The notes beneath the pieces are model-generated. The model saw nothing but the letters and a program-made list of their open reading frames with translations, ran no database searches and was not told where the DNA came from. Both the position numbers and the translations under genes were made by a program. Below are positions 21,726-42,527 of a DNA stretch of 64,000 nucleotides, in pieces (position 1 is the stretch's first letter; the number at the start of each line of letters is the position of its first letter). Source of the stretch: Caproicibacterium amylolyticum (lineage in GTDB: Bacteria; Bacillota; Clostridia; Oscillospirales; Acutalibacteraceae); contig NZ_CP060696.1 of assembly GCF_014467055.1 (NCBI RefSeq), forward strand, positions 2,480,001-2,544,000, written 5' to 3'.

Positions 21726-21810
21726 TTGGCATCTTCCTTCCCGATTGGATTTTGGATAAAAAAACCGCCACATCTCTGTGACGGCACGGACCCTCTTGCG
21801 GTTAAGCATG

Positions 21811-23988: not shown

Positions 23989-24026
23989 ACAGTATAAATC
24001 GGATTTTTCTGTCCGATTATGGACAA

Positions 24027-25403: not shown

Positions 25404-25407
25404 GCAA

Positions 25408-28012: not shown

Positions 28013-28915
28013 TTACTTCGCCACCGCCTTCGCAATGGTGCGGGTGATAGACACTGCGGTTTGTGCGGCATACGCCGCGCTCATGAGGTTGGCCTTGGTT
28101 GACGTATCAAGTCCGAAAGCCCCGGCAATGCGGGGAATTTCGCCGGCCGACAGCATCAGCCCAAGCCCCAGCAGGGCATGGTCTTTGACCACCAGCAGAC
28201 CGGCGCAGAGGATGGTCGCCTGCAGAAACGTCGTCAGGCACAACCCGACGATCTGTTTGCACCATGATACAAATCCGTCAATGTAGCCGCGCGGGACGCT
28301 GAACATATACAGACTTCCCACTGCGATCTGGATCAGCAGGATTCCGCCGCGTTTGAGGTTGCTGAAAAATACTTTAATCACGGCGTACCCCATGAGAATG
28401 AGGATAAACAAGATCAGAATGGGGCTGGTAATGGCGCCGAGCCCGCCGAATACATTGGTGCTTGCCGCCTGTTCCAGTGTGCCTGCCGAGTTAAGCCCGG
28501 TGATGATTGAGCTTGCAAGGCCGCTGATTCCCGAACCATAGCCGGTAATGCCCGCCGTCAGGCTGCTCTGTAGGGATACGGACAGCTTATACAGCTCCAC
28601 CGGCACGGTCGAAAAAAGCCCTACTGCCATAAAACCCTTGATGGCGTTGAGGGCTGTGTCTTTGATGCTGCCGCGGCCGGACTGATACTCAATGGCGCAC
28701 TCGAAAACCGCCACCACAAGACCCGTGCCGTATAGTGCCCAGGCCAGGTAAACGAAAAAGAGAACGATGGACTTCACCCAATCCATGTCGAACAGCTCGG
28801 CGCCCATGTCTCCCATCTGCGCGAAAAAGTTTCCAAGGAAGCCGACGATCTGACTATAGATCCAGTCGATAATCTGATTGAGCACGGTTCCGGCTACGAA
28901 ATTCCAGATGAACAC
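28013..28915 (-). CDS. VirB6/TrbL-like polytopic channel protein
   Basis: A 300-residue membrane protein with five or more hydrophobic helices. The start is taken as GTG 28915 (FIWNFVAGTVLNQIIDWIY follows), because AAAGGA lies 10 bp ahead and the longer upstream frame contains poor sequence. Features: IVGFLGNFFAQMGDMGAELF, then long helices (SIVLFFVYLAWALYGTGLVV) and a Gly/Ser-rich middle loop. It matches the conserved VirB6/TrbL-like protein of clostridial transfer regions, which forms the inner-membrane part of the channel. The about 150 bp upstream has no gene. Confidence 0.8.
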   Translation of the reverse strand: MFIWNFVAGTVLNQIIDWIYSQIVGFLGNFFAQMGDMGAELFDMDWVKSIVLFFVYLAWALYGTGLVVAVFECAIEYQSGRGSIKDTALNAIKGFMAVGLFSTVPVELYKLSVSLQSSLTAGITGYGSGISGLASSIITGLNSAGTLEQAASTNVFGGLGAITSPILILFILILMGYAVIKVFFSNLKRGGILLIQIAVGSLYMFSVPRGYIDGFVSWCKQIVGLCLTTFLQATILCAGLLVVKDHALLGLGLMLSAGEIPRIAGAFGLDTSTKANLMSAAYAAQTAVSITRTIAKAVAK

Positions 28916-29065
28916 AGCATTCACTTCCTTTGCGCAAAATAAAAAGCCACCGTATACCGAATTGCCCTTTACAAAGCAAGAAAATAACAAACAAAATATC
29001 GGAAACGCCAAGCGGTCTGCTGGTTAGACCTTATAACACCGGGATTAGGCTGACCGGTCAATTGG

Positions 29066-29407
29066 CTACATCCCGATGACACCCCAGATATAAAGGGGGG
29101 CCGTCAAGGTGAAAACTAAGCACGCAAACAAAATGGCTGGCGCGGCCCACTCAAATTGGCCCTGCTTTCTGTAGTCGAAATAAGCCGTGCCAAGTTTGGC
29201 AAAGAAGAAAACAGCAAGAATCAGATCAATAGCGGGGAAAACCACTTTGTTGACCACCGTCTTGATCTGCTGGGAAGCAGTCGACCAGGTACTCTGTACC
29301 GCCCCCGCCACGTCGCCGCTGCCGGCTGCGGACGCTGTGATACAAAACACGGAGAGCATCACTAAAGCCATGCAAATGAGAATCACAAACTTCTTCCGCT
29401 TTTTCAT
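29066..29407 (-). CDS. DUF3852 protein, VirB2-like small membrane protein
   Basis: A 113-residue exported protein. Signal-like N-terminus KKFVILICMALVMLSVF ending CITASAAG, then a short amphipathic region (STWSTASQQIKTVVNK) and two membrane helices (FPAIDLILAVFFFAKLG and PAILFACLVFTLTAPLY) separated by a polar turn YFDYRKQGQFEW. This is the architecture of VirB2-type pilin or channel subunits, and DUF3852 members occur at this position in related elements. ATG 29407 preferred; an ATG 21 bp upstream is possible. Confidence 0.75.
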   Translation of the reverse strand: MKKRKKFVILICMALVMLSVFCITASAAGSGDVAGAVQSTWSTASQQIKTVVNKVVFPAIDLILAVFFFAKLGTAYFDYRKQGQFEWAAPAILFACLVFTLTAPLYIWGVIGM

Positions 29408-29443
29408 ATATGCTTTCACACCTTTCATTGTAGGATAAAATTC

Positions 29444-29473
29444 AAGGCCGCAGAGCATGATGCCTACGGCCTT
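29444..29473 (-). terminator. Hairpin terminator after the large exported protein
   Basis: Minus strand AAGGCCG, 16-nt loop, CGGCCTT followed by GAATTTTATCC. Located just after the stop at 29494. Confidence 0.55.
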
Positions 29474-29493
29474 CTTCTTTATCTGCGGATGGT

Positions 29494-31227
29494 TCAGGGT
29501 AATGCCGGGATGGCGCGCCAGTCCGACCACAGGTTTCCCCTAATTGTCACTGAGTCGGTCAGATTCATGCTGAGCATGCCGGTCGGGGTCCAACAATCTT
29601 CCAAAAAGGTGTATGGAGTATAGCTTCCGTCCGGCATCCAAAGCGGTGTGAAATGAGTGCGCCGGTTGTAGGTGGAATAGCGGTTGGGGGCAAATTCAAA
29701 CCGTGCGTTGAACCCGCCGGCTGTCGGGTCCAGCAGGCGCCAATACGTCTTATACCCAAATTCGGGGAAGTAGGTGACGGCGGTTTGAGCGCCAGTTACC
29801 GCCGAGGACTGATTGGTGCTGACAGACGCCGCAGCGGTCTGATTGATCCCATATCCGCTTTTGATTGTTTCGTCGGATGCAGTCGGGTCTTTGCCGTCCG
29901 GCGTGATGCTCATGGATGCGGAAAGGCTCGCGGAATAGGTATCGCAGGCAAAGTCCCACCAGCCGTGATCAACCCAACTGCCGTTGTCCTCCCAAGAACC
30001 GCTGGTGTCGTCGCCGTGCCAAACCCAGTCCGAAACCCACACCCAATCGGCATGCCATACGGGCCGCCATACGTTCCATGAGGCCGAAGTTTTTTGTGGA
30101 TTGCTTGGCATACTCGCCGGGGAATAGCCGCTGTTTCGGTCATCGGCGTTGGGATCAGGCGGGTCATGACCGGAAAGATCCACAATGCTCGCGTTGATCG
30201 TGCCTTCACTGGTGCTTCCTCTGCCCGTTGCAGACACATGAATGGCCATGGACTGCGGCGTGGAAGGCGTTGTCCAGCGCACCCAAGCCAGCTGACTGTC
30301 GCCGTCAGGATAATATACGTTGCCAACCGCATAGTTTCTGCCGCCGATATTGAATCTTACCGTTACCGGGTGGTCGGGATCCGACTGCCCGCCGCTGACA
30401 GTCACCGGTGTGATAACTTCGGTGTTGACACGGTAAGTGTAATTCTGAGTGCTGACCTGCGTTGGCGGTTCGGCTGCGGAAAAGCGGACGATGCCGAGAC
30501 CGAGAGAGGAAATAATCGTGGAGTCGGACACGCGATCATCTCTGGAACCCGTCCAGGCGGGGTAACCAAGATCCGAGGTATCGAGAAACATAGAAAGCGG
30601 CAAATTCTTGTGCGTCAGGGACGCCATCTTGGAACGAAGGTCGCCTCCGAGTCTCTGATCGTACAATGCGGCTTCCGTAGCGGTCATCGCCACCCGTGCG
30701 CCATAAAAAGTGAAATATGCGATAGGTTCCAACAGAATTTTGTAATTGCCATTGGTAAGAATCGAGTAGCTAAAGCCAGTCAGGTTTGCAATACTTCGGA
30801 GCACCTGTTCGTCAGTGAAATAACTTTTTATCACTTCGATACTGGACTGCCCCTGATCGGAGTTGATGATCTTGGGAAGCGGCTGCGCCGGATTGACATA
30901 AGAATACCGGCCGGTATTCAGTGCCAGCGCATGGCCGTTGTTGTAGGCGATCTTGCTTACTTTTCCAAAGTTGATAATAATATTATCCGGATGCCTGTTG
31001 GTGAAATCCACGGAAGCTGACGCCACCGCATGGTCGCTGGCCCGGATGACGGTTACTCGGACACCTTCATCACCGGAGTTCCAGAAATTCTCGTCGCTTC
31101 CGTTTCCGAGCCCGCCGCCTCCATGATCGATGTTTCCGTCCCCGTCCCCATCGGCATAGGCGCTGAGCGGAGTGCAAAGCGTCAGTAGCAATGCCAGAGA
31201 AAGAAAGATGCTGAATAGCCGCTTCAT
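29494..31227 (-). CDS. Large exported protein of the conjugative element
   Basis: A 577-residue protein with a clear signal peptide (KRLFSIFLSLALLLTLCTP, cleavage near AYADG) and an Asp/Gly-rich mature start. The body is beta-rich; a tract near residues 385-425 is extraordinarily rich in Trp, His and Asp (WVWVSDWVWHGDD). No sortase motif or C-terminal membrane anchor is visible, so it is secreted or bound non-covalently. ATG follows TTTGGAGGCGATT. It lies between the DUF6550 and VirB2-like genes. I recognise no characterised family; a surface or channel-tip role in mating is plausible. Confidence 0.75.
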   Translation of the reverse strand: MKRLFSIFLSLALLLTLCTPLSAYADGDGDGNIDHGGGGLGNGSDENFWNSGDEGVRVTVIRASDHAVASASVDFTNRHPDNIIINFGKVSKIAYNNGHALALNTGRYSYVNPAQPLPKIINSDQGQSSIEVIKSYFTDEQVLRSIANLTGFSYSILTNGNYKILLEPIAYFTFYGARVAMTATEAALYDQRLGGDLRSKMASLTHKNLPLSMFLDTSDLGYPAWTGSRDDRVSDSTIISSLGLGIVRFSAAEPPTQVSTQNYTYRVNTEVITPVTVSGGQSDPDHPVTVRFNIGGRNYAVGNVYYPDGDSQLAWVRWTTPSTPQSMAIHVSATGRGSTSEGTINASIVDLSGHDPPDPNADDRNSGYSPASMPSNPQKTSASWNVWRPVWHADWVWVSDWVWHGDDTSGSWEDNGSWVDHGWWDFACDTYSASLSASMSITPDGKDPTASDETIKSGYGINQTAAASVSTNQSSAVTGAQTAVTYFPEFGYKTYWRLLDPTAGGFNARFEFAPNRYSTYNRRTHFTPLWMPDGSYTPYTFLEDCWTPTGMLSMNLTDSVTIRGNLWSDWRAIPALP

Positions 31228-31246
31228 AATCGCCTCCAAAATGGAA

Positions 31247-31278
31247 AAGACGCACAGCCTAACTATGCTGTGCGTCTT
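31247..31278 (-). terminator. Strong hairpin after the DUF6550 gene
   Basis: Perfect 12-bp stem AAGACGCACAGC / GCTGTGCGTCTT with an 8-nt loop, followed on the minus strand by TTCC. It probably limits read-through between the pilus block and the downstream exported-protein gene. Confidence 0.65.
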
Positions 31279-31307
31279 AAATACTGTTTTAAATTTTGAA
31301 ATTTGAC

Positions 31308-31835
31308 TCAGTCCATCTGTCCGACCTTGTTTCCGTTTTCATACATATCGCTCGCTGTACTTCCCGAGCCACCGCCGCCGTTGTTCGTTACCCATCCAAA
31401 TCCGGGGACATAGATTTTCCCGTCTTTTTTCTGAAAGTTTTGATCTCCGGATCCCTTGCCTGGAGAAGTATCCTTCGAGCTATACGTCGGTGCCTTGGAA
31501 GGATTGGTGGTGCTGCCCTGTGCGGCAGGCTTGGAGGAAGGTGCCGCGGGTTTCGATACATCGGGCTGGATCGCCTGATCCGCCTTGCTTGAAGCTTCCT
31601 GTGCCTGGGAGGATGCGGACGAAGAAGGCGCCGTGCTTTCCGTTGTATTATTATCCGTCCCGATAGGTGAGACAGTCACTTCGCTGGAGGAGGCTGAGGA
31701 GGACGGTGTGACGTCAACGTCTTTGGCTCCCTCGGCCTTAAGCTGATAGGAAATCCCGATTATCACAGCCACACACACCACGCCGATGCCGGCGATGGTC
31801 AGCGACCTTTTGGCTCTGTCAGGTAATTTCTTCAT
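31308..31835 (-). CDS. DUF6550 single-pass membrane protein
   Basis: A 175-residue protein: short basic cytoplasmic start (MKKLPDRAKRS), one membrane helix (about residues 12-30), then a long Ser/Ala/Pro/Thr-rich extracellular linker (about 40-125) and a small C-terminal module KIYVPGFGWVTNNGGGG. The GFGWV end-motif is typical of DUF6550 members in clostridial elements. ATG follows AGGAGGTCAAACTCC. The linker is long enough to cross the wall. Function unknown; part of the pilus gene block. Confidence 0.75.
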   Translation of the reverse strand: MKKLPDRAKRSLTIAGIGVVCVAVIIGISYQLKAEGAKDVDVTPSSSASSSEVTVSPIGTDNNTTESTAPSSSASSQAQEASSKADQAIQPDVSKPAAPSSKPAAQGSTTNPSKAPTYSSKDTSPGKGSGDQNFQKKDGKIYVPGFGWVTNNGGGGSGSTASDMYENGNKVGQMD

Positions 31836-31931
31836 GGAGTTTGACCTCCTTTTTTCTTTTTTCCGTTTGTTTCCTCTTGTTTCACACACTATCACAGAAA
31901 GGGTAAAAAGTCTATTGCTACTGCGATTTTT

Positions 31932-32492
31932 TTAGAAAACAGGCATATATTTTGCCCGAACTTTCAATGTGGCGTGCATTGGAGAAAGCGTCTTACCACC
32001 GAAGCTCACCGGTACTTCCAGTTGAATCGTCGCGTCGGCCGCAAAGACCGGACTGTTTGCAGGGTTGGAGGGCGCCAGCGGTGCGTTTTGAATGGTCACC
32101 GACAAACCAGATATCTTGAATTCCTCCGCACCGTCTGCTTCCTTTACATGGGCTCCGCTTTCATTTGTAAGGCCGAGGTTCCGATCAAGCCGCCCGTAGA
32201 TATCGCCGGTACTGACGCTTCCGACCCAGGAAGAGCCGCTGGGTCGATATCCACCGGAATATCCCTCACGGATTCCGTGATAAACGTTGCTGTAATTGTC
32301 GGTTACGGTAGCGACGACGGCAGACTGCACCGCATCCCGGACGCCCGACGCGATGATGCATAGACGCAGGTATTCGGAGATCCCGCACAGGATGAGCACC
32401 AGCGCGAGGGCGACCGCCACAACCAGCGGGAAAGAAAACCCGCGCCGGTCTTTCAGAATATGCTTCAGTTTTTTGCGCACGTTTTCCTTCAC
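31932..32492 (-). CDS. TadE/TadF-like pseudopilin
   Basis: A 186-residue protein beginning (GTG start) with a basic segment KENVRKKLKHILKDRRG, then a hydrophobic helix FSFPLVVAVALALVLILCG. RRG followed by F and a helix is the prepilin-peptidase substrate pattern of TadE/TadF-type minor pilins, with cleavage expected after Gly. The exported part is beta-rich and ends with HATLKVRAKYMPVF. It follows the DUF4320 gene directly, with only one base between stop and start codons. Likely a minor subunit of the Tad-like machine. Confidence 0.7.
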   Translation of the reverse strand: MKENVRKKLKHILKDRRGFSFPLVVAVALALVLILCGISEYLRLCIIASGVRDAVQSAVVATVTDNYSNVYHGIREGYSGGYRPSGSSWVGSVSTGDIYGRLDRNLGLTNESGAHVKEADGAEEFKISGLSVTIQNAPLAPSNPANSPVFAADATIQLEVPVSFGGKTLSPMHATLKVRAKYMPVF

Positions 32493-32493
32493 C

Positions 32494-32889
32494 TCATTTC
32501 CAGTAAATTTCGCTTTTCCCGTTGGCCTTTCCTTCCAGATTGATCGGAAAACTGCCGAGTCCGCCGAACAGCCCGATATTTGCCTGTGCGGACACCGTCA
32601 CTGTGAATTCCTGATCGAGCGGGATTTTACCTGTCCTTGACCAGTCGACAGACGGGTGCAGCCCGGTCTGTTCCTCCAGTTCCCGCGCCCGTGCGTCCGT
32701 TTCCGTACCGATGCGGCCTGAGATCTCCGCTTCCCGGCACAGCTCCGTGGCAAAGGAGTCCAGCTGGTTTTTCTCTATATACACGGGAAACAGTTTGACC
32801 GCGAAAGCGATGACCAGCATGGCGCAGAGCACCAGCACCGCGATGTCGATATAACCTTCCCCGCGGCGGGAGCGGAGCCGTTTCAGCAC
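32494..32889 (-). CDS. DUF4320 protein, TadE-like minor pilin
   Basis: A 131-residue protein with the start LKRLRSRRGEGYIDIAVLV followed by a hydrophobic helix. The RRGEG-(Y/F)-(I/V)-D pattern is shared with the pilin-like protein at 38626-38856, which suggests processing by the same peptidase encoded at 38203-38619. The C-terminal domain is a small exported fold ending NGKSEIYWK. GTG start overlaps the preceding gene and follows AGGGGGTGAAACT. DUF4320 members are recurrent in clostridial conjugative elements. Confidence 0.8.
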   Translation of the reverse strand: MLKRLRSRRGEGYIDIAVLVLCAMLVIAFAVKLFPVYIEKNQLDSFATELCREAEISGRIGTETDARARELEEQTGLHPSVDWSRTGKIPLDQEFTVTVSAQANIGLFGGLGSFPINLEGKANGKSEIYWK

Positions 32890-33248
32890 AGTTTCACCCC
32901 CTGCTGTTCCGGAGGGTGAAAATCCTCGTCAAGTTCATAACTATGCTCCGCATCCCCGCGGTCCGCGACCGACCAGAGAACATGCTCCATATCCTCATCG
33001 GGCGCATAGGATTCTTCCTCCATCCACTGATCCCGCACAACCTCCAGAGGGTTCCGAAACCGGAGCAGATATTCCATGTCCCTGAAATGGCTGGCCCGGA
33101 ACGCCTTGTATACCGTTTTGGTTGCGGCGATTTCCTCCGCTTTTTCGATCAGGGTCGGTGTGTCGAGATTTAACCATCCCTGCACAAAGGCATTGTAATT
33201 TTCATCGAGCTTTTCCTGAAGCTCCTGCAGCGTTTTCTGATGGTCCAT
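32883..33248 (-). CDS. DUF3848 protein
   Basis: A 121-residue soluble, acidic protein. It starts MDHQKTLQELQEKLDENYN and contains IEKAEEIAATKTVYKAF and MEYLLRFRNPLEVVRDQW, the signature of DUF3848, a family found with conjugative elements. ATG follows GGGAGGTTTATAG. It overlaps DUF4320 by 7 bp. No export signal, so it acts inside the cell; the role is unknown. The about 105 bp upstream contains a small inverted repeat (AGCGGC/GCCGCT, about 33340) after the TadC stop. Confidence 0.75.
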   Translation of the reverse strand: MDHQKTLQELQEKLDENYNAFVQGWLNLDTPTLIEKAEEIAATKTVYKAFRASHFRDMEYLLRFRNPLEVVRDQWMEEESYAPDEDMEHVLWSVADRGDAEHSYELDEDFHPPEQQGVKLC

Positions 33249-33354
33249 CTATAAACCTCCCTTCCTCACATACATGGATATATTCAGGATCCCGGGTGCC
33301 TTGTTTTCCGCTGGATGCTGTCTGCACCCGCGTCATATCAGCGGCGGTTCGCCG

Positions 33355-34227
33355 CTAAAACATGGTGCCGAGGGATTTCATGATTGAGATCGCCATGACG
33401 GCGAGCCATGTGAACAGGAAACACATCAGCATCACAAAGGAATAGACGCGGATCTTCGGCGGAATTTTAAGCGCCTCGCCGCGCAGCCGCTGGAGCTCCA
33501 GCGCCTTGAAGTCGTGATCGAGCATCTGGAAGTATACCGCTCCGTCGTCGCCCCGCAGCACCCCGATCAGGCCGCGCGTCACATCGGATATACGAGGTGA
33601 ATTGAACCGAGCCTCAAAGCGGGTCAGCGCCGCCTCATAGGAGGAGGAGCGCATGTCGGCGGTCAGAATTCCCAGCTCGTTCGCAAAGGCTTCGCCCGCG
33701 TTTTGCTTGTAATGCTCCAGCATCGCCAGCACGTCGCGGCTGGATTTGAGGGATTGCTCAATGGTCGCCACAAAGCGGGGCAGCTCGCTTTCAATCTGCT
33801 CGCGTTTCGCCTTGAGCTGCTCGTCCGCCTTTCGGACTTCTTTGAAATATACAAGGGCGGCAAGCAGCATCAGCACCGGAGCCAGCAGCGGCAGAAGAAA
33901 CAGGCAGAGAATTGCCAATACGGCGATCGCGCCTCCTTTTACAATGGCGTATGCGGTATAAAGCTCCGGCGTCATGGGGATTCCAGCCGCCTTGAGGGTG
34001 TTCTCCAACCGGCTGCGTTTGTATTCGTTCATGCGGATAAACCTTGCCAGCTTGCCGGCACACGTCATGAGGTAAGCCTCCACGCTTTTGGCGGCTTTTT
34101 TCCGGGGCTTCCCGGCGCTCAGCAAAGCCTTGGCCGCGGCCAGCGTCGGAAGCTTCAGCAAATCGGATAGAAGGAAAAACAGCCCCGCCGCAAGCAGGGC
34201 TGCAAAAAGAAACAGCAGACCCGTCAT
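33355..34227 (-). CDS. tadC: TadC-like inner-membrane platform protein (GspF family)
   Basis: A 290-residue type II secretion F-domain membrane protein. Helices at the start (MTGLLFLFAALLAAGLFFLL), in the middle (GAIAVLAILCLFLLPLL..) and at the C-terminus (RVYSFVMLMCFLFTWLAVMA) flank a cytoplasmic domain with PRFVATIEQSLKSSRDVLAM. The start at 34227 is chosen because AGGAGG lies 8 bp ahead; a GTG 9 bp upstream overlaps that site. It follows tadB with 5 bp between stop and start. Works with TadB and the TadA ATPase to move pilin subunits. Confidence 0.87.
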   Translation of the reverse strand: MTGLLFLFAALLAAGLFFLLSDLLKLPTLAAAKALLSAGKPRKKAAKSVEAYLMTCAGKLARFIRMNEYKRSRLENTLKAAGIPMTPELYTAYAIVKGGAIAVLAILCLFLLPLLAPVLMLLAALVYFKEVRKADEQLKAKREQIESELPRFVATIEQSLKSSRDVLAMLEHYKQNAGEAFANELGILTADMRSSSYEAALTRFEARFNSPRISDVTRGLIGVLRGDDGAVYFQMLDHDFKALELQRLRGEALKIPPKIRVYSFVMLMCFLFTWLAVMAISIMKSLGTMF

Positions 34228-34232
34228 CCACG

Positions 34233-35162
34233 TCACCTCCTGTAGCGGATGGGCTTTGTCAGTTTGATCACGAAGGCACCGCTGATGAAAATCGCCGCGG
34301 CACAGGCCGCAAGGACGATCTGGCCCGCGAGGCTGTGCATCAGCGCCGCGTACCAGCTCCGGTTGAGGAAATACATGAGCGGGATGTTGCCGACAACCAA
34401 CAGCGCCATGATGACGAATTCCTTTCGCGGTTCAAACACCAAGTAGTCCAACTCGGCGTTGACCACGCGGACGTCGGAGAGCTTGGTAACAATCGGCGTC
34501 AGCGTGCTTTTCAGGCTCCGATCGTATTGACACGTGGCGACGGCATCGCACCATTCCTGAAACACTTCGTTTTGAATTTTGGGTTTCATCTCCCGGATTG
34601 CCGCTTCGACGTCGGGGTCGATGAGCTTGACCCGCGCGGTAAATTCCGCAAAAACATTCTTCACCGGCGGGTTCAGATAGGGCAGGTTTTCCTCTATCGA
34701 GGTCAGCAGATCCTCATTGCGCAAATAGGCCGATGTGACAATGGAGAGCGCCGTTTCCAGTTCGGCGGCGACGTTTTTTTTGAAGTGCTCCGCCGTCGTC
34801 CTGACATAGAGAAACGGCAGGAACGCGAGCCCCACCGCCAGAACCGGCACCAGAATCACATTCTGCATTAGAATGGCAACGCACGCTCCGAGAGCGAAGA
34901 ACAGGAGCGACGCCGCGCAGACCATGGAAAAGCGTTCGCTCTGTCCGGTCATCCGGAGGATTTCCTGCGCCTCTCTGATTTCACGGCGCAGGAATGACGG
35001 CTTTTTTCGCCTGGTGGTTTCATTGATCTCATCCCGGATGCTCCGGGGCCGTTTCAGCAGAAAGCCGAACAGTCCGTCCGCGAATTCCAGCGGCGAGAGC
35101 TTCAGAATCATAAATGCGCCGGCGATCAGGCCGGCGCAGGCAAACAGCTCTATTGCGGTCAT
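34233..35162 (-). CDS. tadB: TadB-like inner-membrane platform protein (GspF family)
   Basis: A 309-residue partner of TadC. Two N-terminal hydrophobic stretches, a pair of helices near residues 80-115 (AASLLFFALGACVAILM, VILVPVLAVGLAFLPFL), a cytoplasmic F-domain with ALSIVTSAYLRNEDLLTSI and MKPKIQNEVFQEWCDAV, and two C-terminal helices. ATG overlaps the tadA stop by 4 bp. Tandem TadB/TadC genes after the ATPase gene are the standard Tad order. Confidence 0.87.
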   Translation of the reverse strand: MTAIELFACAGLIAGAFMILKLSPLEFADGLFGFLLKRPRSIRDEINETTRRKKPSFLRREIREAQEILRMTGQSERFSMVCAASLLFFALGACVAILMQNVILVPVLAVGLAFLPFLYVRTTAEHFKKNVAAELETALSIVTSAYLRNEDLLTSIEENLPYLNPPVKNVFAEFTARVKLIDPDVEAAIREMKPKIQNEVFQEWCDAVATCQYDRSLKSTLTPIVTKLSDVRVVNAELDYLVFEPRKEFVIMALLVVGNIPLMYFLNRSWYAALMHSLAGQIVLAACAAAIFISGAFVIKLTKPIRYRR

Positions 35163-36532
35163 GCGGCCTCGCCTCCAATCTGCAGAATTCGTTTGAAGAT
35201 GTCCTGCGGCATGCCGTTTTCAATGAGCCGCCTCTGCAGGCTCGGAGAGATGCCCTGTACCACGCTGTGACTGCCGCTGATGATGAACCGGCCGTCTTCA
35301 ATGCGGTTTTCGCCGATGGCGAACTGGAAGATGGGGCGGAAATTTCTCGCGCCATCCGGCAGGATTTCGCACTCCATTACTTCCATTACACGGCGCTGCC
35401 GGTTTTCCAGCTGTTTGCAGAATACAATCAGCGGGAACGCCTCGGTGACATAGCCCATGAGGGTCGCGTCGGGCGTATCGACGGCGCGCTTGCACAGGGA
35501 CACCATGCGGGAATAGGTTGCCTGGCAGGAGTTGGCGTGGATGGTGGTGACGACAGCGATGCCGGTGCGGGCGGCTTCCTGCGCCGCGTCCGCCTCGGGT
35601 CCGCGCATTTCACCTACAACAACATAATCGGGGTTGAAACGCAGGGCGATGTCCAGCAGATCGGTCTGGTCGATCCGCTGCCGGCCGTTCTCGCTGTCGC
35701 GGGTCAGCGTGTGGATGACGCTGTTGCGGATTTTCCCGTTTGCATCCCTTCTCACCAGCGAAAGCTCGCGGCTTCCGGATTCGATGGTAAAGATGCGTTT
35801 GTTGTCCGGTATGGTGGTCAGGAGCCAGCCCGCAAGTGTGGTCTTGCCGGATCCGGTCGGCCCCGCGACGCAGATGGAAATGCCGTAGCGCAGACACTCG
35901 GAGAGAAAATCCAGCATGTCCTCCGTTGCCGTGCCGAGGCGAATAAAATCGTCACGCCCCATGTTCTGCGGGTTGACGATCCGGATGGACGCGGCCACCG
36001 CCACGTCCTCGTCCACCAGAGGATCCTTGAGCGTGGCGATGCGGATGTTTTTGCTCAAATGCCCCAGCACGGCCGGAGATGCGTTGTCAAGCACCATGCC
36101 CGATATGTGGAGCATACGGCGGATGACGCTGACGGCGTGCGCCGGGGAATCGAAATGCTCATCGAGCTTTCTGATGCTGCCGTCGCTGTACTGCACCTCC
36201 ACGTCGTCCCAGGCGTTGACGTCGATTTCTTCAATTCCGGAGCCGAAAATGTAACGGGTCAGGAAACCGAATTCTGCCATCTCGGTGTGTAGCGCCTCTA
36301 CGAGCCGGGGTTGGTCCATGCCGGAGACGGCGATCCGGTTTTCCCGCACATACTGCGCGATGTACCGTTTGAGCTGCGCCTTGGATTCAAGGCCCGCCCC
36401 CGCCGAAAGCAAAGAGGCGTAGTGAGTGGAGATATATCCCTGAACTTCCCGCAGAACCTCTCCGAAGTCTCTGGCTTCATCTGCAGGTGTAAAAAACAGG
36501 TTCTGGCTGTCTGTCATATGAATGGGCTTCAA
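35159..36532 (-). CDS. tadA: TadA/CpaF-type secretion ATPase
   Basis: A 457-residue hexameric ATPase of the Tad/type IV pilus group. Seen: N-terminal domain with GIEEIDVNAWDDVEVQYSDG, Walker A GPTGSGKTTLAGW (about 222), the Asp/Glu box region FTIESGSREL, Walker B-like VVVGEMRGPEADAAQEA, and His box VVTTIHANSC. All catalytic elements are present. The start is TTG, overlapping the tadZ stop (TTGA), with GGAGG 13 bp ahead. It drives pilin assembly with TadB/TadC. It is distinct from VirB11 by its CpaF-type N-domain and neighbours. Confidence 0.92.
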   Translation of the reverse strand: MKPIHMTDSQNLFFTPADEARDFGEVLREVQGYISTHYASLLSAGAGLESKAQLKRYIAQYVRENRIAVSGMDQPRLVEALHTEMAEFGFLTRYIFGSGIEEIDVNAWDDVEVQYSDGSIRKLDEHFDSPAHAVSVIRRMLHISGMVLDNASPAVLGHLSKNIRIATLKDPLVDEDVAVAASIRIVNPQNMGRDDFIRLGTATEDMLDFLSECLRYGISICVAGPTGSGKTTLAGWLLTTIPDNKRIFTIESGSRELSLVRRDANGKIRNSVIHTLTRDSENGRQRIDQTDLLDIALRFNPDYVVVGEMRGPEADAAQEAARTGIAVVTTIHANSCQATYSRMVSLCKRAVDTPDATLMGYVTEAFPLIVFCKQLENRQRRVMEVMECEILPDGARNFRPIFQFAIGENRIEDGRFIISGSHSVVQGISPSLQRRLIENGMPQDIFKRILQIGGEAA

Positions 36533-37344
36533 ACGTCGAACACCTCCTTGCTGATTTTCTGGATTTCTTTGCGAAAACCCCGACTTTCCTTGAGCGACAG
36601 ATCCCGAAACAGATCTCCCGCGAGCATCTGGTTTTCCAGTTCGTCGGAATGGGGAAGCCTGAATGCGACGCTGCCAAGAATCTGCTCCATATTCTCGCTG
36701 GCCTGATTGGCCCGGATATTGCTTGCCGCCTTATACTGTTTTTCCGCGTCCCATTTGTTGTCCTTGAGGAGCGGGAGCTGGGAGGACAGGTAGCTGACGG
36801 ATTTCAGGTCACAACCGACCAGCCGCAGAACGGCGTCGGAGTCCATGAGCGCCACCGCCGACAGAATATCGTGGGCGATGGCGCTGCCACAGTCGATGAT
36901 CACATAGGGTGCGACCTCCCGCAGACCGGCGATCAGTTCCGCCGCAAGCTCAGAGTTATATGGCGGGTAGGTAAAGACGTTTTCCCCTTTGCGCATCCCG
37001 AGAATGCTCAGGTGGCTGATGCGCTTATGGGTGATGCAGTTGTGCCGGATCAGGCTCGCGGTGATATGCGAGGCGGCAAGGACACTCCCAAGGGAACACT
37101 CGCACTCGAGATCGGCGGGCGGGCAGATACAGGGCAGCATGGGCGTCGTGCTGTCACAGAGCAGAAGCAGCACGTTGCGGCGCTGACCCGTCAGGTATTG
37201 GGCCAGCTTGACGCTGACCGTGGTCTTCCCGCTGCCGGGGCTGCCCCATACGGCCAGAATTTGTGTGGAAGGCTCCGGTTCGGGATCCGCCTTGGGCGCG
37301 CCGGAGCTCCGGGAGAAAAGGCTTCCGGTCTGAAAATGAAACAT
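36529..37344 (-). CDS. tadZ: TadZ/CpaE-like ATPase
   Basis: A 271-residue MinD/ParA-like protein. Phosphate loop ILAVWGSPGSGKTTVSVKLA near residue 32, VLLLLCDSTTPMLPCI, and YVIIDCGSAIAHDILSA supplying the Asp of the Walker B region. CpaE/TadZ proteins position the Tad machine in the cell; here it is encoded inside a mobile element. ATG overlaps the cpaB stop (TAATG). It ends in overlap with tadA, so the genes are tightly coupled. No receiver domain is present at the N-terminus, unlike full CpaE. Confidence 0.8.
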   Translation of the reverse strand: MFHFQTGSLFSRSSGAPKADPEPEPSTQILAVWGSPGSGKTTVSVKLAQYLTGQRRNVLLLLCDSTTPMLPCICPPADLECECSLGSVLAASHITASLIRHNCITHKRISHLSILGMRKGENVFTYPPYNSELAAELIAGLREVAPYVIIDCGSAIAHDILSAVALMDSDAVLRLVGCDLKSVSYLSSQLPLLKDNKWDAEKQYKAASNIRANQASENMEQILGSVAFRLPHSDELENQMLAGDLFRDLSLKESRGFRKEIQKISKEVFDV

Positions 37345-38183
37345 TACTGTCCCCCCTCGCCGGAGGGAGAGGCGGTCTGAGAAGAGCTGCTTCCCTGAGC
37401 CGGGCCGGAAGAATCCGTCAGCACCGTACTGGAGGCGTCCGGGTACAGCTCTTTTAGGGCCTTGTCCTGTGCGTCGAGGAATTTCTGAGCGTTGTCCTTG
37501 CCGCCCCGGTAGACAAGGGCAAGGTGCAGCTTCCCGTCCGCGTCCAGCCCCGCGAGGATGGCGCTCTGCTCCGGCGTCGCCAGCAGGGTGACGGTGCTTG
37601 GCAAATTCTTTTCTGCATCTTCCGTTGAAGACGAATTGGATCCAGCGTCACGCTGGTCGGCATCCGCGCCCTCACTGGTGGTCACGCCGATGACCTCCAC
37701 ATACTGCAGTTCCTTCGGGGTGACGGTGCTGCCCTGGTTCTGGTAGTCCGGGGCTAGAACCGAGACAATATCGCCCGGTTGCAGTTTGCCGGAAACCCCT
37801 TCCGCAAGGGTTTTAAGTGTCACGGAAACAGCCTGCCTGCTCCCATTGAGGTCCGATAGATAGGCGTTTGACACGGTAGGAGTGCCGGTAATTTTCGTGC
37901 TGAGAACATAGTCGCCGGGAGCGAGATCCGCAGCGGCGTATTTTCCTACAACACTGTCCGGGCTTTTCAGTACATTTGAAGGCAGGTTATAACCTCCGAC
38001 TTCCACGGTCTGCACCATGTCTTTGGTGATCTGCTGCCCGGCCTGAATATCCTTCGTGACGCGCACGATGCTCGTCTTATGCGAAACTCCGGCGTTAAAA
38101 AGGGGCGTGACCGCAAAACAAATGAGGAGTGAAAGCAAAATGCAGAGCGCCCCAAGAACGGTGCGGTTTTTGAAAAAGCTCAC
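37344..38183 (-). CDS. cpaB: CpaB/RcpC-like SAF-domain protein
   Basis: A 279-residue exported protein: one N-terminal membrane helix (GALCILLSLLICFAVTPLF), then a SAF domain with TKDIQAGQQITKDMVQTV and APGDYVLSTKI, an RcpC-type domain (LKTLAEGVSGKLQPGDIVSV) and a Ser/Gly/Thr-rich tail. These proteins form part of the envelope portion of Tad pili and may bind peptidoglycan. GTG start follows TTGGAGGGATTATCTC. In the usual Tad order it precedes TadZ and TadA, as here. Confidence 0.85.
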   Translation of the reverse strand: MSFFKNRTVLGALCILLSLLICFAVTPLFNAGVSHKTSIVRVTKDIQAGQQITKDMVQTVEVGGYNLPSNVLKSPDSVVGKYAAADLAPGDYVLSTKITGTPTVSNAYLSDLNGSRQAVSVTLKTLAEGVSGKLQPGDIVSVLAPDYQNQGSTVTPKELQYVEVIGVTTSEGADADQRDAGSNSSSTEDAEKNLPSTVTLLATPEQSAILAGLDADGKLHLALVYRGGKDNAQKFLDAQDKALKELYPDASSTVLTDSSGPAQGSSSSQTASPSGEGGQ

Positions 38184-38202
38184 GAGATAATCCCTCCAAT
38201 AT

Positions 38203-38619
38203 TCATAGAAAATAGGCCGCGATAAATCCGAATGAGATAAAAGGCGCGAGGGGGTATGGCTGGTTCAGCACCCTTCCATGCGGCCTGTACTTCCGATAGA
38301 TCCGACAGCCGACGTAAAAAAAGAGCATGGAGCTGTAGGCGATGATCTGTGCCCACAATCCATGCTCAAATCCAACGACGAACCCGGCCGCGATGGTCAG
38401 CCATACGTCCCCGAAACCCAGCCTGTCCTTGCAGATCAGAGCGAGGACAAAAACGGGGGCGCCCGCAAAAATTCCAAACAGTTTGATGGGGTTAAAACAG
38501 AGGAGTCCGGCAAGAAATATGCCGGGAATGTCGCCCCTCGGAATCTCCCTGTTTCTGAGATCACCGGCAGCCGCCGCCGACAGCAGAAGAAAAAAAGCGG
38601 CGGCTCGAATCCAGGCCAT
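38203..38619 (-). CDS. tadV: Prepilin peptidase, A24/TadV-type
   Basis: A 138-residue membrane aspartyl peptidase that cleaves prepilin leaders. First catalytic Asp in AAGDLRNREIPRG near residue 19, second in the conserved GFGDVWLTIAAGFVVG (GxGD motif, about 72). Four or more hydrophobic helices. The length is that of short CpaA/TadV enzymes, without the methylase domain of PilD. It is 6 bp downstream of the pilin-like gene. Expected substrates are the pilin at 38626 and the pseudopilins at 31932 and 32494. Confidence 0.9.
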   Translation of the reverse strand: MAWIRAAAFFLLLSAAAAGDLRNREIPRGDIPGIFLAGLLCFNPIKLFGIFAGAPVFVLALICKDRLGFGDVWLTIAAGFVVGFEHGLWAQIIAYSSMLFFYVGCRIYRKYRPHGRVLNQPYPLAPFISFGFIAAYFL

Positions 38620-38625
38620 GGCCGC

Positions 38626-38856
38626 TTACCCGGCATAGTTGAACATATCTTTGATCCGCTGGGTCACGGTCGGCAGGATGGTGTTGCCGAACAGGGCGTA
38701 CAGGCCGGCGAGGAGCAGGGCGCCGATGACGACGGCGATTAGGATTTTGATGGCGCTGTCCACGAACCCCTCCGCCCTCCGTGATGACACTCTGGCATAA
38801 AACCGGAGCAGCCTACACGCGAACCCCTTTTTCGCGCTGGATATTTTCTTTTTCAT
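38626..38856 (-). CDS. DUF6133 pilin-like protein (Flp-type)
   Basis: A 76-residue protein with a basic leader (KKKISSAKKGFACRLLRFY..), then RRAEGFVDSAIKILIAVVIG and a continuous hydrophobic helix, ending LPTVTQRIKDMFNYAG. It has the size and shape of a Flp/Tad major pilin; cleavage is expected after the Gly of RRAEG. ATG follows GGAGGTACTTC. It is the first gene of the pilus run, next to its peptidase, consistent with being the major structural subunit. Confidence 0.8.
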   Translation of the reverse strand: MKKKISSAKKGFACRLLRFYARVSSRRAEGFVDSAIKILIAVVIGALLLAGLYALFGNTILPTVTQRIKDMFNYAG

Positions 38857-38904
38857 GAAGTACCTCCGTCAAAAATTTTTGTTTATGCTTTGGGGTGAAA
38901 AAAT

Positions 38905-38925
38905 GGCGGGCGTCACACGCCCGTC
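38905..38925 (-). terminator. Terminator overlapping the SpoVG stop
   Basis: Minus strand GACGGGCG-tgtga-CGCCCGCC followed by ATTTTTTC. It separates spoVG from the pilus operon, so the pilin promoter should lie in 38857-38905. Confidence 0.75.
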
Positions 38926-39299
38926 ATCTGCATTCCGGCTTCCTGCTTCGGAGCCTCGGGAGACTGCTGCTTGAGGGCCTCCTTCTGCCCCTGGATCAGC
39001 GCCTGGTGATAGGCGTCCAACACCGCGCCGTTGAGCTGCTCCCGGAATTCTTTGGTGACCGGGAAGCAAATGTCCCGGTACTCGCCGTTCCTGGCCCGGT
39101 AGCTCGGCATGCTGACGAACAGCCCCTTGCTGCTTTCGAGCACCTTGACATTGCGGATAGCAAAGCAGCCGTTCAGGTTGACTGAAGCGTAGGCTTTGAC
39201 GTTGCCCTCCGGACGGATAGAGCCGATTTTCACATCCACCTGCATGGGCTGCGCCGGGCTTTCGGGCGCGGCGGCCTGTGCTTTCTGCATTTCACTCAT
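38913..39299 (-). CDS. SpoVG-family protein
   Basis: A 128-residue protein. After an Ala/Pro/Gln-rich extension of about 25 residues comes the SpoVG core: VDVKIGSIRPEGNVKAYAS, FAIRNVKVLESSKGLFVSM, PSYRARNGEYRDICFPV. Family members bind nucleic acids and adjust sporulation, septation and virulence genes. ATG 39299 follows AGGAGGAACAAGTC. The extra N- and C-terminal Gln/Ala-rich parts differ from chromosomal SpoVG. Being in the element next to the pilus genes, it may regulate their expression. Confidence 0.82.
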   Translation of the reverse strand: MSEMQKAQAAAPESPAQPMQVDVKIGSIRPEGNVKAYASVNLNGCFAIRNVKVLESSKGLFVSMPSYRARNGEYRDICFPVTKEFREQLNGAVLDAYHQALIQGQKEALKQQSPEAPKQEAGMQMTGV

Positions 39300-39373
39300 G
39301 ACTTGTTCCTCCTGTATTTTCAAATTTGGGCATAAAAAGACAGCCCTCCGCTGTCAGTGGAAAAAATCCGTTT

Positions 39374-41245
39374 TCAATCTGTAAGATCGAAAAACAGCGA
39401 AAGGCTGTGAACCGAAGTGTAGGCTTTATCCCAGGCAAGACCGTATTTCGCCGTGAGCGCCAGGGTCCCCGCGGCACCGTTGGGGTTCAGAATGCCGAGG
39501 AAAGTCCGGCCTGCGATATCTGAGGCATAGAGCGGGGCTGTTCGGTCGATCTCCGACCATGTGCCGCTTCCGGTTGCTGTTTCCCTGATCCCAAGCCCGA
39601 GGGCAATATTCGATCTGGTCTGCACGGTTGTCAGCTTGCTCCAGTCCGCATACTTGGAGGGCGGCACGTCGTTCAGCGTGAGCGAGCCTCCGGTGGATGC
39701 GGACAGGCTTTGAACGGAAACCCGAATGGGGATCGTGGAATTGTTGACGATTTGGACATCCGGCGCCGTAAAAGGAGCCGCGCTGTTGGGGTTGATCGCA
39801 TAGCCGACGCTGACCGGATGTGTGACGGAAACAAGCTCGTCCACATGATAGGTCGAGACTGCTGAAACATTTCCTACGTTGTCGTCAGCGGCAATGTGAA
39901 CATAAAAACCGCTGCCGGATGGCCGCGCAAAAGTGTAACTTCCTGCTGTGGTGGTGATGGAGCCGTCAGGAACCCCGGATGGGTTATTGTCGACAGCAAT
40001 GGAGTAACCCTTCATCCCGCTTTCGATGCTGGTGCTGATGGTAGGCGAATCGTATTTCATACCATCGTTTTCACCGGTGCTTTCCACATAATACTGATAA
40101 CCAGTAGCATTGTCCTGCGAGGAGTAGCTGACCGTGTATTGTGTTCGCCCGGAATTATGGGTGATGCCTGAAATGGCTGGCGCATCCGGTGCGTCCAAAT
40201 CCTGCCCCTTGTGATCAGACCAACTCGTATCGGTGGTGATCTGGCTTAAATAGAAAAGGGTGTTCGCCGTCACCCGCTGCTCATCGGGGGTAGCGTCGCC
40301 ATTGGAGTGACCTGTCTGGATCATTGCGGCATTGCTCCAGCTGGTGAGATAGAAATTATTGGTGCCCAGACCCGAGGTAACAAGGGTGCTGTTCGGATAG
40401 GTAAAAGGCTGCTGGTAGGTCATCCAGATGTCGCCGAAGGCCATCTGGTTGGAGTGAGACATCGGCACGTTCAGCACCGTGCCGATGCCCCCAACCTGCC
40501 AGGGGTAGTTGGTCAGCAAGCCTTTTTTGAAAACCTTGATCTGTGTATTGCCGAGCACCGTGTAATGGCTGATGGTCTGAATATCGCAGTAATGGGCCAG
40601 CTTGAAGAAATTAGGCATGGAGATGGTGTCATTGTCAACCATCGTGTCATGACCGAACAGCACCCCTCTGCCGGTTTTAATGAAAGCGTCGGTGGCGGTC
40701 TCCGCCGCAGCAGAGAGATCCTCGCTGGCAAAGGCATCCCATGCTCCAAAATATAAGGTGTCATATTTATACAAGCCGTCTGAATTCTTCAGGTATGCGT
40801 TCGGATTGGCATTATAACTGGTAATGGATACGGGATCAACCGAAATCAAGCCTTTGCCGTAGCCCTTGGGGTCATATTGGTTCGGCACCTCCATCCACGC
40901 TTTCAGCGATGCCGACTTCGGCAGGGTATAGCCTTGTTCTGTCCATGTCGTAAAGCTGACGGTGGGCGTTACGTCGGGGTAGATGTTCAGCACTTTCACG
41001 CTGGCCTTTGATGGAATACTTTGGAACGTCGAATCATGGGATGATTTGCTGTACAGCATGTAGCTGTACGGCTGGCTTTTGTCGCTGTTTGTCCAGCTCA
41101 AAGCAACATAATTTTCTGCGGGATTCGGCGTTGCAGAAAGTGTCAGGGTGGTTGCCGCGGAGGCCGTGATGCCGGGCAAAATGGACGTGAACAGGAGAAA
41201 GCAGGCAAGGAGCGGGACGCAACACAGGCGCTTGAAGCGATGCAT
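39374..41245 (-). CDS. DUF5057-like exported surface protein
   Basis: A 623-residue secreted protein with a signal peptide (CCVPLLACFLLFTSILPG, cleavage near ASA). It starts with a fibronectin-like segment (TPNPAENYVALSWTNSDKS). The DUF5057-like part follows: YDTLYFGAWDAFASEDLSA and TGRGVLFGHDTMVDN. Further beta domains lead to a C-terminal domain (about 470-623) with TLALTAKYGLAWDKAYTSV, which is homologous to the smaller protein encoded next (41322-41912). ATG follows AAAGGAGGTCAAACTCTTC. Likely surface adhesin or pilus-associated protein; no membrane anchor seen. Confidence 0.78.
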   Translation of the reverse strand: MHRFKRLCCVPLLACFLLFTSILPGITASAATTLTLSATPNPAENYVALSWTNSDKSQPYSYMLYSKSSHDSTFQSIPSKASVKVLNIYPDVTPTVSFTTWTEQGYTLPKSASLKAWMEVPNQYDPKGYGKGLISVDPVSITSYNANPNAYLKNSDGLYKYDTLYFGAWDAFASEDLSAAAETATDAFIKTGRGVLFGHDTMVDNDTISMPNFFKLAHYCDIQTISHYTVLGNTQIKVFKKGLLTNYPWQVGGIGTVLNVPMSHSNQMAFGDIWMTYQQPFTYPNSTLVTSGLGTNNFYLTSWSNAAMIQTGHSNGDATPDEQRVTANTLFYLSQITTDTSWSDHKGQDLDAPDAPAISGITHNSGRTQYTVSYSSQDNATGYQYYVESTGENDGMKYDSPTISTSIESGMKGYSIAVDNNPSGVPDGSITTTAGSYTFARPSGSGFYVHIAADDNVGNVSAVSTYHVDELVSVTHPVSVGYAINPNSAAPFTAPDVQIVNNSTIPIRVSVQSLSASTGGSLTLNDVPPSKYADWSKLTTVQTRSNIALGLGIRETATGSGTWSEIDRTAPLYASDIAGRTFLGILNPNGAAGTLALTAKYGLAWDKAYTSVHSLSLFFDLTD

Positions 41246-41321
41246 GAAGAGTTTGACCTCCTTTCCGGGGGACAGACAGCGGCCGGAAACTGTGTGCCTC
41301 CGGTCGCCTGTCCGTTATCGG

Positions 41322-41912
41322 TTATGTGAGCTGGAACAGGAACACGAGGCTGTGGTTTGCGGTGTAGGCTGCGTCGAAGGCAAGGCCGTAATCCGCCGTA
41401 AGCGTCAGGATCCCGTTCGTGGCGGGATTCAGCGATCCGACCAGCAGCGGCGACGGGGTGGTCGCCCAATGGGTGGCGGTGCTGTAACCGGAGTTCCAGC
41501 CGGTGGAGTCCTTTGCTTTCACGCCGAGCGCGATGTATTTTTTGGAATCCGCGTTGTTCAGTGTATTCCACGACTTGGACGCGGGGTCGACATCGGTGAA
41601 GGTCAGCGTACCGCCGGATGCTGCGTCGAGGGACTGGACGGTGACGTTGACCGCCGTTTTGGTGTTGTTGGTGATGCCGATGTCCGGTGAAGTGAACGTG
41701 CCGGCGTCGGGACTGATGGCGTAGGCGACGTTGATGGGGTGCGTCACGCTGATCGTCAGCGGCGAAATGGATCCGTTGATGGTTACAGAGCCGGTGACGC
41801 TGCCGGTTCCCGAGTCGGTTGTGGTGGTCGCGGCAAACGCCGGAACCGCCGCGAGGGAAAGCATGGCGAGGGTGACGATGCCCGCAAGCAGTTTTTTGAT
41901 ACCCTTTTTCAT
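41322..41912 (-). CDS. Exported protein homologous to the C-terminus of its neighbour
   Basis: A 196-residue secreted protein with a signal peptide (LLAGIVTLAMLSLAAVPAF, cleavage after AFA). The mature part, LTISVTHPINVAYAISPDA to ILTLTADYGLAFDAAYTAN, aligns along its length with the last about 150 residues of the upstream-strand neighbour at 39374-41245. This is a stand-alone copy of that beta domain, so the two may co-assemble, with this one as a possible repeating subunit. ATG follows AAGGAGGATTCCCC. WxL-like in general look, but without the diagnostic WxL motifs. Confidence 0.78.
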   Translation of the reverse strand: MKKGIKKLLAGIVTLAMLSLAAVPAFAATTTTDSGTGSVTGSVTINGSISPLTISVTHPINVAYAISPDAGTFTSPDIGITNNTKTAVNVTVQSLDAASGGTLTFTDVDPASKSWNTLNNADSKKYIALGVKAKDSTGWNSGYSTATHWATTPSPLLVGSLNPATNGILTLTADYGLAFDAAYTANHSLVFLFQLT

Positions 41913-41957
41913 GGGGAATCCTCCTTATAAATCTGATTGTAAGCCGGAAATCCGGCT

Positions 41958-42527
41958 TTACGAAACGGTGAGCTTGAGGCGGTAATCCGCCTGACCAAGC
42001 AGTGACTTGGTATCCGTGCTGTAATATTTGATATTTGCGATGACGTCGTAAGTACCAGGGGCTACCTTCTGGGAGAGGGTGATCTGCTCAATATGCTGGC
42101 CCGGATAGATCGGCACCGATTCCGCGACGGTCTGTCCGTTCAGTATGACAGCGCACTGCTCAATCACCTTGTTGGATGCCGGGTTCTCCACCGTCCATGT
42201 GCCGACCGCGCCCTTGATGCCGCTTGAAAAAGCAATCTGTTCGCTTACTTTGTCGGTGACTACGACCTCCTCTTCCCGCAACTCGGACAGGATCTCCTGC
42301 CGGGATTTGGGAACGTACCCGCCCGGTAAGGCGTTGCCGTTATCGTCGAGGGAAGAAGAAGGGGCCGATTGGCTGGATGGGGACGGGCCGCCACCATTCG
42401 GTGTCCCGGCATGGCAAAAAGAAAAGGTGATGCCGATGATCGCAAGCAAAAGGATGAGCAGGATAATCGGCAGCACCCTTTTGCGCTTTTTATTTTTTTC
42501 CTTTCCGTCGTTGTTTTCGTGGTTCAT
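41958..42527 (-). CDS. Single-pass membrane protein with extracellular beta domain
   Basis: A 189-residue protein: very basic cytoplasmic start (KEKNKKRKRVLP), one membrane helix (about 20-37), Pro/Ser linker, then an extracellular domain with GTWTVENPASNKVIEQCAV and SQKVAPGTYDVIANIKYYS that resembles immunoglobulin-like DUF916/COG-type carrier domains. ATG follows GGAGGTGTGG. It sits with the two exported proteins 45 bp downstream; it may anchor them at the membrane. No characterised family recognised with confidence. Confidence 0.7.
   Translation of the reverse strand: MNHENNDGKEKNKKRKRVLPIILLILLLAIIGITFSFCHAGTPNGGGPSPSSQSAPSSSLDDNGNALPGGYVPKSRQEILSELREEEVVVTDKVSEQIAFSSGIKGAVGTWTVENPASNKVIEQCAVILNGQTVAESVPIYPGQHIEQITLSQKVAPGTYDVIANIKYYSTDTKSLLGQADYRLKLTVS

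Follow-up and report, generated by a model that had tools for sequence, protein, structure and literature searches.

What is a complete pilus assembly machine doing inside the transfer operon of a Gram-positive mobile element? The question is raised by a stretch of 64,000 nucleotides of Caproicibacterium amylolyticum (bases 2,480,001-2,544,000 of a complete, single-contig genome of 2.996 Mb; hereafter the window), in which a set of Tad pilus genes lies among genes for a type IV secretion system (T4SS), a lysin and a relaxase. Gram-positive T4SSs are said to lack pili, and how Gram-positive donors grip their recipients is described as largely unknown (PMC8092201, PMC11730352). From gene content and its comparison across genomes, we consider it probable that the window holds an integrative and conjugative element (ICE) in which an exchangeable mating-attachment module precedes the mating channel, the module here being a monoderm Tad (type IVc) pilus and a secreted protein, c581.

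Linkage of the Tad genes to the transfer genes

The original prediction had placed TadA, TadB, TadC, TadZ, CpaB, a TadV peptidase and a Flp-like pilin in one run, accompanied by VirB3-, VirB4- and VirB6-like proteins, VirD4, a relaxase and an M23 lysin. The named Tad genes are all present on the minus strand with Pfam or profile support, TadZ being recognised from matches at about the cut-off and from its position. Profiles likewise confirm VirD4, the lysin, the relaxase, VirB4 (below its NCBIfam cut-off) and VirB6, with VirB3 assigned by position and topology only. Read from 38856 down to 28013, the order is pilin candidate, A24 peptidase, CpaB, TadZ-like protein, TadA, TadB, TadC, DUF3848-like protein, DUF4320, TadE-like protein, DUF6550, c581, VirB2 candidate and a VirB6 of the TrbL_5 family (Table 1). 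The conserved Tad unit occupies 29494-38856 rather than the whole interval of 29066 to 42527 first assigned to it; 29066-29530 encodes the VirB2 candidate, and 39374-42527 is variable.

This order recurs widely. A profile of eleven TadA sequences was run against genome contigs and the best 80 of 413 relatives were kept; in these, flp-A24-cpaB-tadZ-tadA-tadB-tadC-DUF4320-TadE-like-c581-virB2 is found as far as the contigs reach, with few exceptions, and TadA identity is 65-74% across Clostridia loci with the same gene order. Where 9 kb or more of sequence is available past tadA, a virB2 gene lies downstream in every locus (61 of 61); where 7.5 kb or more is available, it does so in 65 of 66, the sole miss (L058) lacking any of the set after tadC, and c581 is likewise present in 65 of 66. 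VirB6 was detected in 40 of the 60 loci extending 9.9 kb or more past tadA, and most of the remaining 20 may simply end too early, since they retain 0.07-4.6 kb after virB2 and the gap between virB2 and VirB6 is up to 3.7 kb in the 45 loci having both. Because virB2 follows in 61 of 61 loci and gene order is conserved, we rejected chance co-location of the Tad and transfer genes.

More distant TadA proteins were also placed in context. Among 20 loci at 35-54% identity (19 of 30 roughly full-length places at 34-54%, plus G025), 11 have VirB4, VirD4 or a relaxase nearby, two have only a primase and seven have none of these, with c581 in 14 of the 20. Ten control loci at 27-31% TadA identity, picked from many such places and mostly in single-contig genomes, have no transfer-gene or c581 match within ~20 kb (10/10), and no SpaA, thioester-domain (TED) or sortase match. 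A TadA search of viral contigs gave at least one distant match. We note that a human faecal record submitted as 'Bacteriophage sp.', L310 (MT835617.1), shows this gene order too (LPD28 ... flp-Tad-c581) and probably represents a piece of such an element.

Several features of the individual proteins bear on whether a pilus could be made. The motif [GASC]E[GND][FYW][VIL]D occurs in 60 of 72 relatives for the pilin candidate, in 71 of 72 for DUF4320 and in none of 72 for the TadE-like protein. Cleavage before the Glu would put Asp at +5 of the pilin candidate, where a Flp pilin is expected to have Glu5-Tyr6, and the candidate has no Flp Pfam match. Of the two pseudopilin-like genes, the TadE-like one has a name that lacks profile support (no Pfam or NCBIfam match); it was detected in 72 of 80 relative loci. 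TadB and TadC of the window gave no significant direct Pfam match and were identified through a reference chromosomal set, of which the two TadB and two TadC proteins tested all match T2SSF; the TadZ-like protein has no match among solved structures. The window's genome contains a single TadA match at E <1e-20, which lies in the window, and two PilB/PilT-like ATPases elsewhere in the genome score higher than TadA on T2SSE.

A plausible course of events can be put together from these parts. The A24 peptidase would trim the pilin and the pseudopilins, as their shared GEGYID-type motif suggests, and TadA, TadB, TadC and TadZ with CpaB would, by homology, assemble a thin pilus. Its co-occurrence and Ig/CARDB-like fold suggest that c581, on the pilus or the cell surface, could be an adhesive or stalk part. 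The pilus would bring or hold the recipient against the donor, and the separate VirB/VirD4 channel, M23 lysin and MobP3 relaxase would then transfer the DNA.

Tad and adhesins in the slot before VirB6

If the Tad pilus serves contact, what do related elements carry in its place? We surveyed the region upstream of VirB6-family genes in 49 loci (40 fetched stretches and nine earlier loci), of which five are too short to judge (G666, G668, G657 and two in G714, the last three with c581). The survey omits partial or weak matches, matches at contig edges (G666 C18, G864, G729 and both G399 contigs), G664 and a second place in G838. The 44 informative loci comprise 12 with Tad, 28 with SpaA, thioester-domain or sortase proteins, and four with neither (G605; G683; G486, which also lacks a virB2 match; and G748, with a c581-like protein only); tadA and an adhesin are never found in one locus (0/44). 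G119 is scored as Tad from a separate stretch because an insertion of ~15 kb parts virB2 from virB6, and G645 as adhesin on sortases alone. Fisher's test on 12 versus 32 loci gives 9e-8, a value that ignores kinship. Outside the 44, a further 14 TrbL_5 loci share contig and strand with a TadA gene (G302 twice, G259, G332, G439, G254 twice, one with a stop in tadA, G367, G350, G249, G508, G180, G493 and G243), and six of these entered the tree described below. Tad is not obligatory for VirB6-family elements, being present in only 12 of the 44 loci. The original prediction had named the absence of Tad from closely related, transfer-proficient elements as evidence against it; this objection applies in part, as Tad is indeed absent from related elements, but transfer is known for none of them.

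The proteins found in place of Tad are large and consistently positioned. In tblastn searches of the 28 adhesin loci, thioester-domain queries match in 17 and sortase queries in ten, including the five loci from which the queries came. The adhesin frame ends at most 0.9 kb from virB2 in 24 of 27 loci, the exceptions being G806 at 1.9 kb, G815 at 4.0 kb and G158, where ArdA- and D12-like genes intervene, at 9.5 kb, and the frames are 1096-2778 residues long save in one of two G573 loci (731) and in G158 (547). Pfam found SpaA in all of the first five slot adhesins tested, TED in three of them, and SpaA in a sixth; G158 encodes a TED protein, a Gram-positive pilin and two sortases. On a tree of 92 VirB6 rows (62 Tad, 28 adhesin, two neither), made by a quick method and with several long branches, at least five changes between states are needed, three of them forced by well-supported branches, and a nine-member adhesin clade including G158 and G645 sits among the Tad elements. 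The tree is rich in Tad by sampling, since 44 of its rows are genome contigs that were found as Tad loci, some of them from the same genomes as other rows (near-zero branches). In G815 (L247, 18914-19606) a lone TadZ homologue (41% identity, E 1e-49) stands between the thioester/SpaA adhesin and virB2; it may have been left behind when modules were exchanged, or be an ATPase put to new use.

With Tad inside the transfer operon (61/61) and adhesins or sortases in 28 of 32 informative loci lacking it, a pilus for donor-recipient contact is the better supported of the two roles that the original prediction had offered. We lean, by a narrower measure than for our reading of the window's element, towards a general form of this reading, in which a contact module in the transfer operon of clostridial ICEs is exchanged among unrelated surface machines (Tad with c581, a thioester/SpaA adhesin, a sortase-assembled pilus), the Tad version is a true monoderm conjugative pilus with c581 as its adhesin, and the choice of module sets the recipients or the setting (liquid or surface) of transfer.

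The strongest competitor, which we nonetheless consider unlikely, is that the slot holds cargo serving the host cell, with Tad pili or SpaA/TED adhesins sticking the bacterium to surfaces or host tissue and the element benefiting indirectly. Tad and TED proteins play such roles elsewhere, as far as the available parts of two papers describe (PMC5696575, PMC8092201). Cargo usually varies in place, however, whereas these genes lie within the transfer operon with virB2 next in 61 of 61 loci, and the alternatives in the slot are all contact devices. Record titles include Desulfosporosinus and Pelotomaculum among the genera carrying the Tad block; because these are environmental genera, a role limited to animal hosts is argued against. 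Lacrimispora and Caproiciproducens genomes also appear among the carriers.

The other role originally offered was a hybrid transfer channel, in which TadA replaces VirB11 or the Tad platform is integral to DNA transfer. TadA is the sole T2SSE/VirB11-family match in the element's stretch of the genome, is kin to VirB11 and sits in a tight operon. Against solved structures, however, its profile matches CpaF best (155 bits), followed by an archaeal secretion ATPase (126), FlaI (98) and VirB11 (82), and we rejected TadA as a VirB11 because its nearest solved structures are CpaF. The pilus set is kept whole, down to the pilin candidate and the peptidase. In the 28 adhesin loci the same VirB6-family T4SS is present and tadA is not, and VirB2, VirB4, VirB6 and relaxase are all retained in G106, G084 and G021, which lack tadA.

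Plasmids separate the two systems from the other side. Among 72,556 plasmids, c581 occurs in six, the same six whose TadA is nearest (40-51%, against 30% for the next one listed), and the window's VirB6 has no plasmid match at E 1e-5. Five of the six were fetched, and four of these are annotated: L006 and L007 carry pLS20_p028/CD1115-type genes, L008 PrgI-type genes, and L010 DUF3852 with a different TrbL-family protein. Since the TrbL_5 VirB6 family occurs without tadA and Tad with c581 rides other T4SS types, we regard a hybrid channel as very improbable. Separately, the clostridial plasmids L006-L010 with the Tad set are typed by MOB-suite in PLSDB as non-mobilizable, yet VirD4 is annotated in L006 and L007 and a MobP2 relaxase in L006; the transfer potential of such plasmids may therefore be undercounted.

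Structure comparisons of c581 (Foldseek, VIA-align) returned mostly generic Ig-like domains. Two loci, L260 and L268, encode c581-like proteins of 1477 and 857 residues with Flg_new (Listeria-Bacteroides) repeats, one also with MucBP, which hints at c581-like proteins with variable surface-binding parts.

The element, its limits and its other genes

Two complete genomes of the same genus, G122 and G125, carry a block of the window's element that is piecewise ~88-99% identical and runs from 18.9 kb left of the window to window position 49179. In both it is bounded by partial tRNA-Ala repeats of 39 and 37 bp (92% and 89%), with large serine-recombinase-like genes inside its left end. The window's own genome (G000) differs at the left end, which is replaced by a tyrosine-integrase-like gene adjoining tRNA-Ser(CGA), 21.4 kb left of the window; recombinases and integrase are named from sequence reading alone. 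We infer a shared block of ~68 kb, an integrated copy of up to ~73.6 kb and exchangeable integration modules. A recombinase and attachment repeats are thus found in G122 and G125 as well as in G000, and the window's element has profile matches for relaxase, coupling protein, VirB4 and VirB6, as an ICE should. A search for attachment sites using a guessed pattern gave nothing above chance, and comparison of the whole block then yielded the ends; a 15-bp repeat linking 7.87 and 49.19 kb was considered as an end and discarded, since on the left the homology extends further. CD1110-type VirB4 is a feature of Tn1549/CD1115-type elements. The CD1110 VirB4 model scores 156 bits on the window's protein against a cut-off of 325, and NF045975 scores higher (315) though also below its cut-off, so the element is not placed in that group by this test.

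The sister copies also bear on whether the locus is a remnant, left by an earlier insertion and no longer functional. Both have an apparently damaged VirB4: a single in-frame stop interrupts its C-terminal half in G122, and this half gives no match in the part of G125 examined, for which reason these copies may be unable to transfer themselves. That half is open in the window. The Tad genes of G122 and G125 are stop-free, with ratios of nonsynonymous to synonymous substitution (dN/dS) of 0.05-0.39 across the three genomes except for DUF4320 (0.66 and 0.33, at very low divergence), and by these ratios they are under purifying selection. Together with the conservation of gene order across Clostridia at 65-74% TadA identity, this makes a remnant more improbable still than a hybrid channel. 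Least likely of all is a pilus importing free DNA, for which the Flp pili of Micrococcus luteus offer a precedent (PMC4322843, PMC6370729, in part), as no competence gene is found among the element genes run on Pfam and adhesins take Tad's place in siblings.

Table 1. Features of the element and its ends, in window coordinates
Feature	Position	Strand	Basis
tRNA-Ser 3' half, candidate right attachment remnant	52098..52141	+	imperfect 44-bp copy, 84%, paired with tRNA-Ser(CGA) 21.4 kb left of window
tRNA-Ala(GGC)-like end, right limit of block shared with G122/G125	49105..49180	-	block comparison
Variable exported proteins c623, c196, c189, between spoVG and yodL	39374..42527	-	orthologues in G122 and G125
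Major pilin candidate DUF6133, 76 residues	38626..38856	-	Pfam PF19629 107 bits; AEGFVD motif then hydrophobic helix
A24 prepilin peptidase, TadV-like	38203..38619	-	PF01478 32.1 bits, cut-off 26.5
CpaB/RcpC	37344..38183	-	PF16976 (RcpC 61 bits), PF08666 (SAF 37 bits)
TadZ-like MinD/ParA ATPase	36529..37344	-	CbiA/AAA_31 at about cut-off; position between cpaB and tadA
TadA/CpaF assembly ATPase	35159..36532	-	Pfam T2SSE 96.5 bits
TadB platform protein	34233..35162	-	hhalign to chromosomal TadB set 98.4%, E 8.4e-15
TadC platform protein	33355..34236	-	hhalign to chromosomal TadC set 98.6%, E 5.6e-16, 148 columns
DUF3848-like small protein	32883..33248	-	PF12959 19.6 bits, below cut-off
Pseudopilin-like DUF4320, GEGYID motif shared with pilin candidate	32494..32889	-	PF14208 124 bits
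TadE-like putative pseudopilin	31932..32492	-	position; N-terminal RRGF and hydrophobic stretch
DUF6550, membrane-anchored, low-complexity (by eye)	31308..31895	-	PF20187 88.7 bits
c581, exported, tryptophan-rich Ig-like surface protein	29494..31239	-	signal sequence by eye; CARDB-like domain, residues 248-350
VirB2-like candidate, DUF3852	29066..29530	-	PF12963 155 bits; TrbC below cut-off
VirB6-like TrbL_5	28013..29011	-	PF19511 499.5 bits
VirB3-like	25092..25520	-	position and topology only; adjoins virB4N in relatives
VirB4 N-terminal half, separate gene	24505..25095	-	NF045975 positions 93-288, 27.6 bits, far below cut-off
VirB4 ATPase half	19872..21809	-	NF045975 positions 290-893, 315 bits, cut-off 590
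M23 lysin	17091..18134	-	PF01551 113 bits
MobP3/MobL relaxase with C-terminal Sel1 repeats	11271..14171	-	NF041499 400 bits, cut-off 150; MobL and Sel1 Pfam
VirD4 coupling protein	7833..9650	-	PF02534 147 bits

The VirB4 gene is split in two (19872-25095), and the halves are separate in all ten relatives having both; those of the window are parted by a divergent operon that includes a Y-family polymerase gene (21995-24238, plus strand). The VirB3-like protein has no NCBIfam match. The fusion of a MobP3/MobL relaxase to Sel1 repeats looks unusual. Outside the Tad unit, c623, c196 and c189 have no match in the 80 relatives; c196 and the C-terminus of c623 share a domain at 45% identity (39374-41912), and a predicted structure of c196 was not used (mean predicted local distance difference test score, pLDDT, 35.6). 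The shared block also contains genes for an ArsR-type regulator and a heavy-metal P-type ATPase (4099-6652), where GC content is lower.

Relation to known systems

The original prediction knew of no functional description of this arrangement. For Bacillota this stands: among the matches listed, judged by title and abstract and mostly without subscription papers, none describes a Tad set in a transfer operon or an exchange of modules, and DUF4320, DUF3852, DUF6133 and DUF6550 are not named in the same literature. It does not stand more generally, as close precedents exist in Gram-negative IncI plasmids and PAPI-1 and in Cutibacterium plasmids. Across the papers drawn on (PMC8941779, PMC6668835, PMC5696575, PMC12857230, PMC11730352, PMC9045228, PMC8092201), type IV pili paired with conjugation are described for IncI plasmids and PAPI-1, and tad paired with transfer genes for plasmids of Cutibacterium acnes. 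Like IncI1 and IncI2 plasmids (R64, TP114), the window's element would combine conjugation with a type IV-family pilus separate from the T4SS channel; theirs is a diderm system with a type IVb pilus and a shufflon adhesin, whereas the window's is monoderm and type IVc/Tad, and LPXTG-type adhesins replace it in siblings. PAPI-1 of Pseudomonas aeruginosa is likewise integrated and combines VirB4/VirD4 with genes for a type IV pilus (PMC12857230), but that pilus is indispensable and no more than two T4SS homologues are clearly recognised in the account available, while the window's element adds VirB2, VirB6 and a lysin.

The Tad loci on clostridial chromosomes have homologous TadA, TadB and TadC and differ in the distance and surroundings already given for the ten controls. 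Nearer in setting are the linear plasmids of Cutibacterium acnes, which are Gram-positive and carry a tad locus with FtsK/VirB4/TcpC-like genes, and for which detection of cell appendages and of a putative pilin is described (PMC5696575); unlike the present element, they are from Actinobacteria, have their conjugation genes upstream of tad, and are not reported, in the part of the paper available, to exchange modules. The TIE thioester adhesin of pLS20 is also a contact protein in a Gram-positive transfer operon, is required for efficient conjugation (PMC8092201), and has the kind of domain that replaces Tad in siblings. Its device is a single adhesin, and that of the window a predicted pilus. 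The plasmid pLS20, moreover, belongs to another T4SS group.

Beside these systems, what appears to be new is that contact devices are exchanged as modules ahead of a common mating channel: in a widespread family of clostridial elements, a whole pilus machine and several types of adhesin seem interchangeable, which suggests how Gram-positive donor cells may grip their recipients. One T4SS backbone with different contact devices would offer a direct handle on transfer and recipient range in gut and environmental Clostridia.

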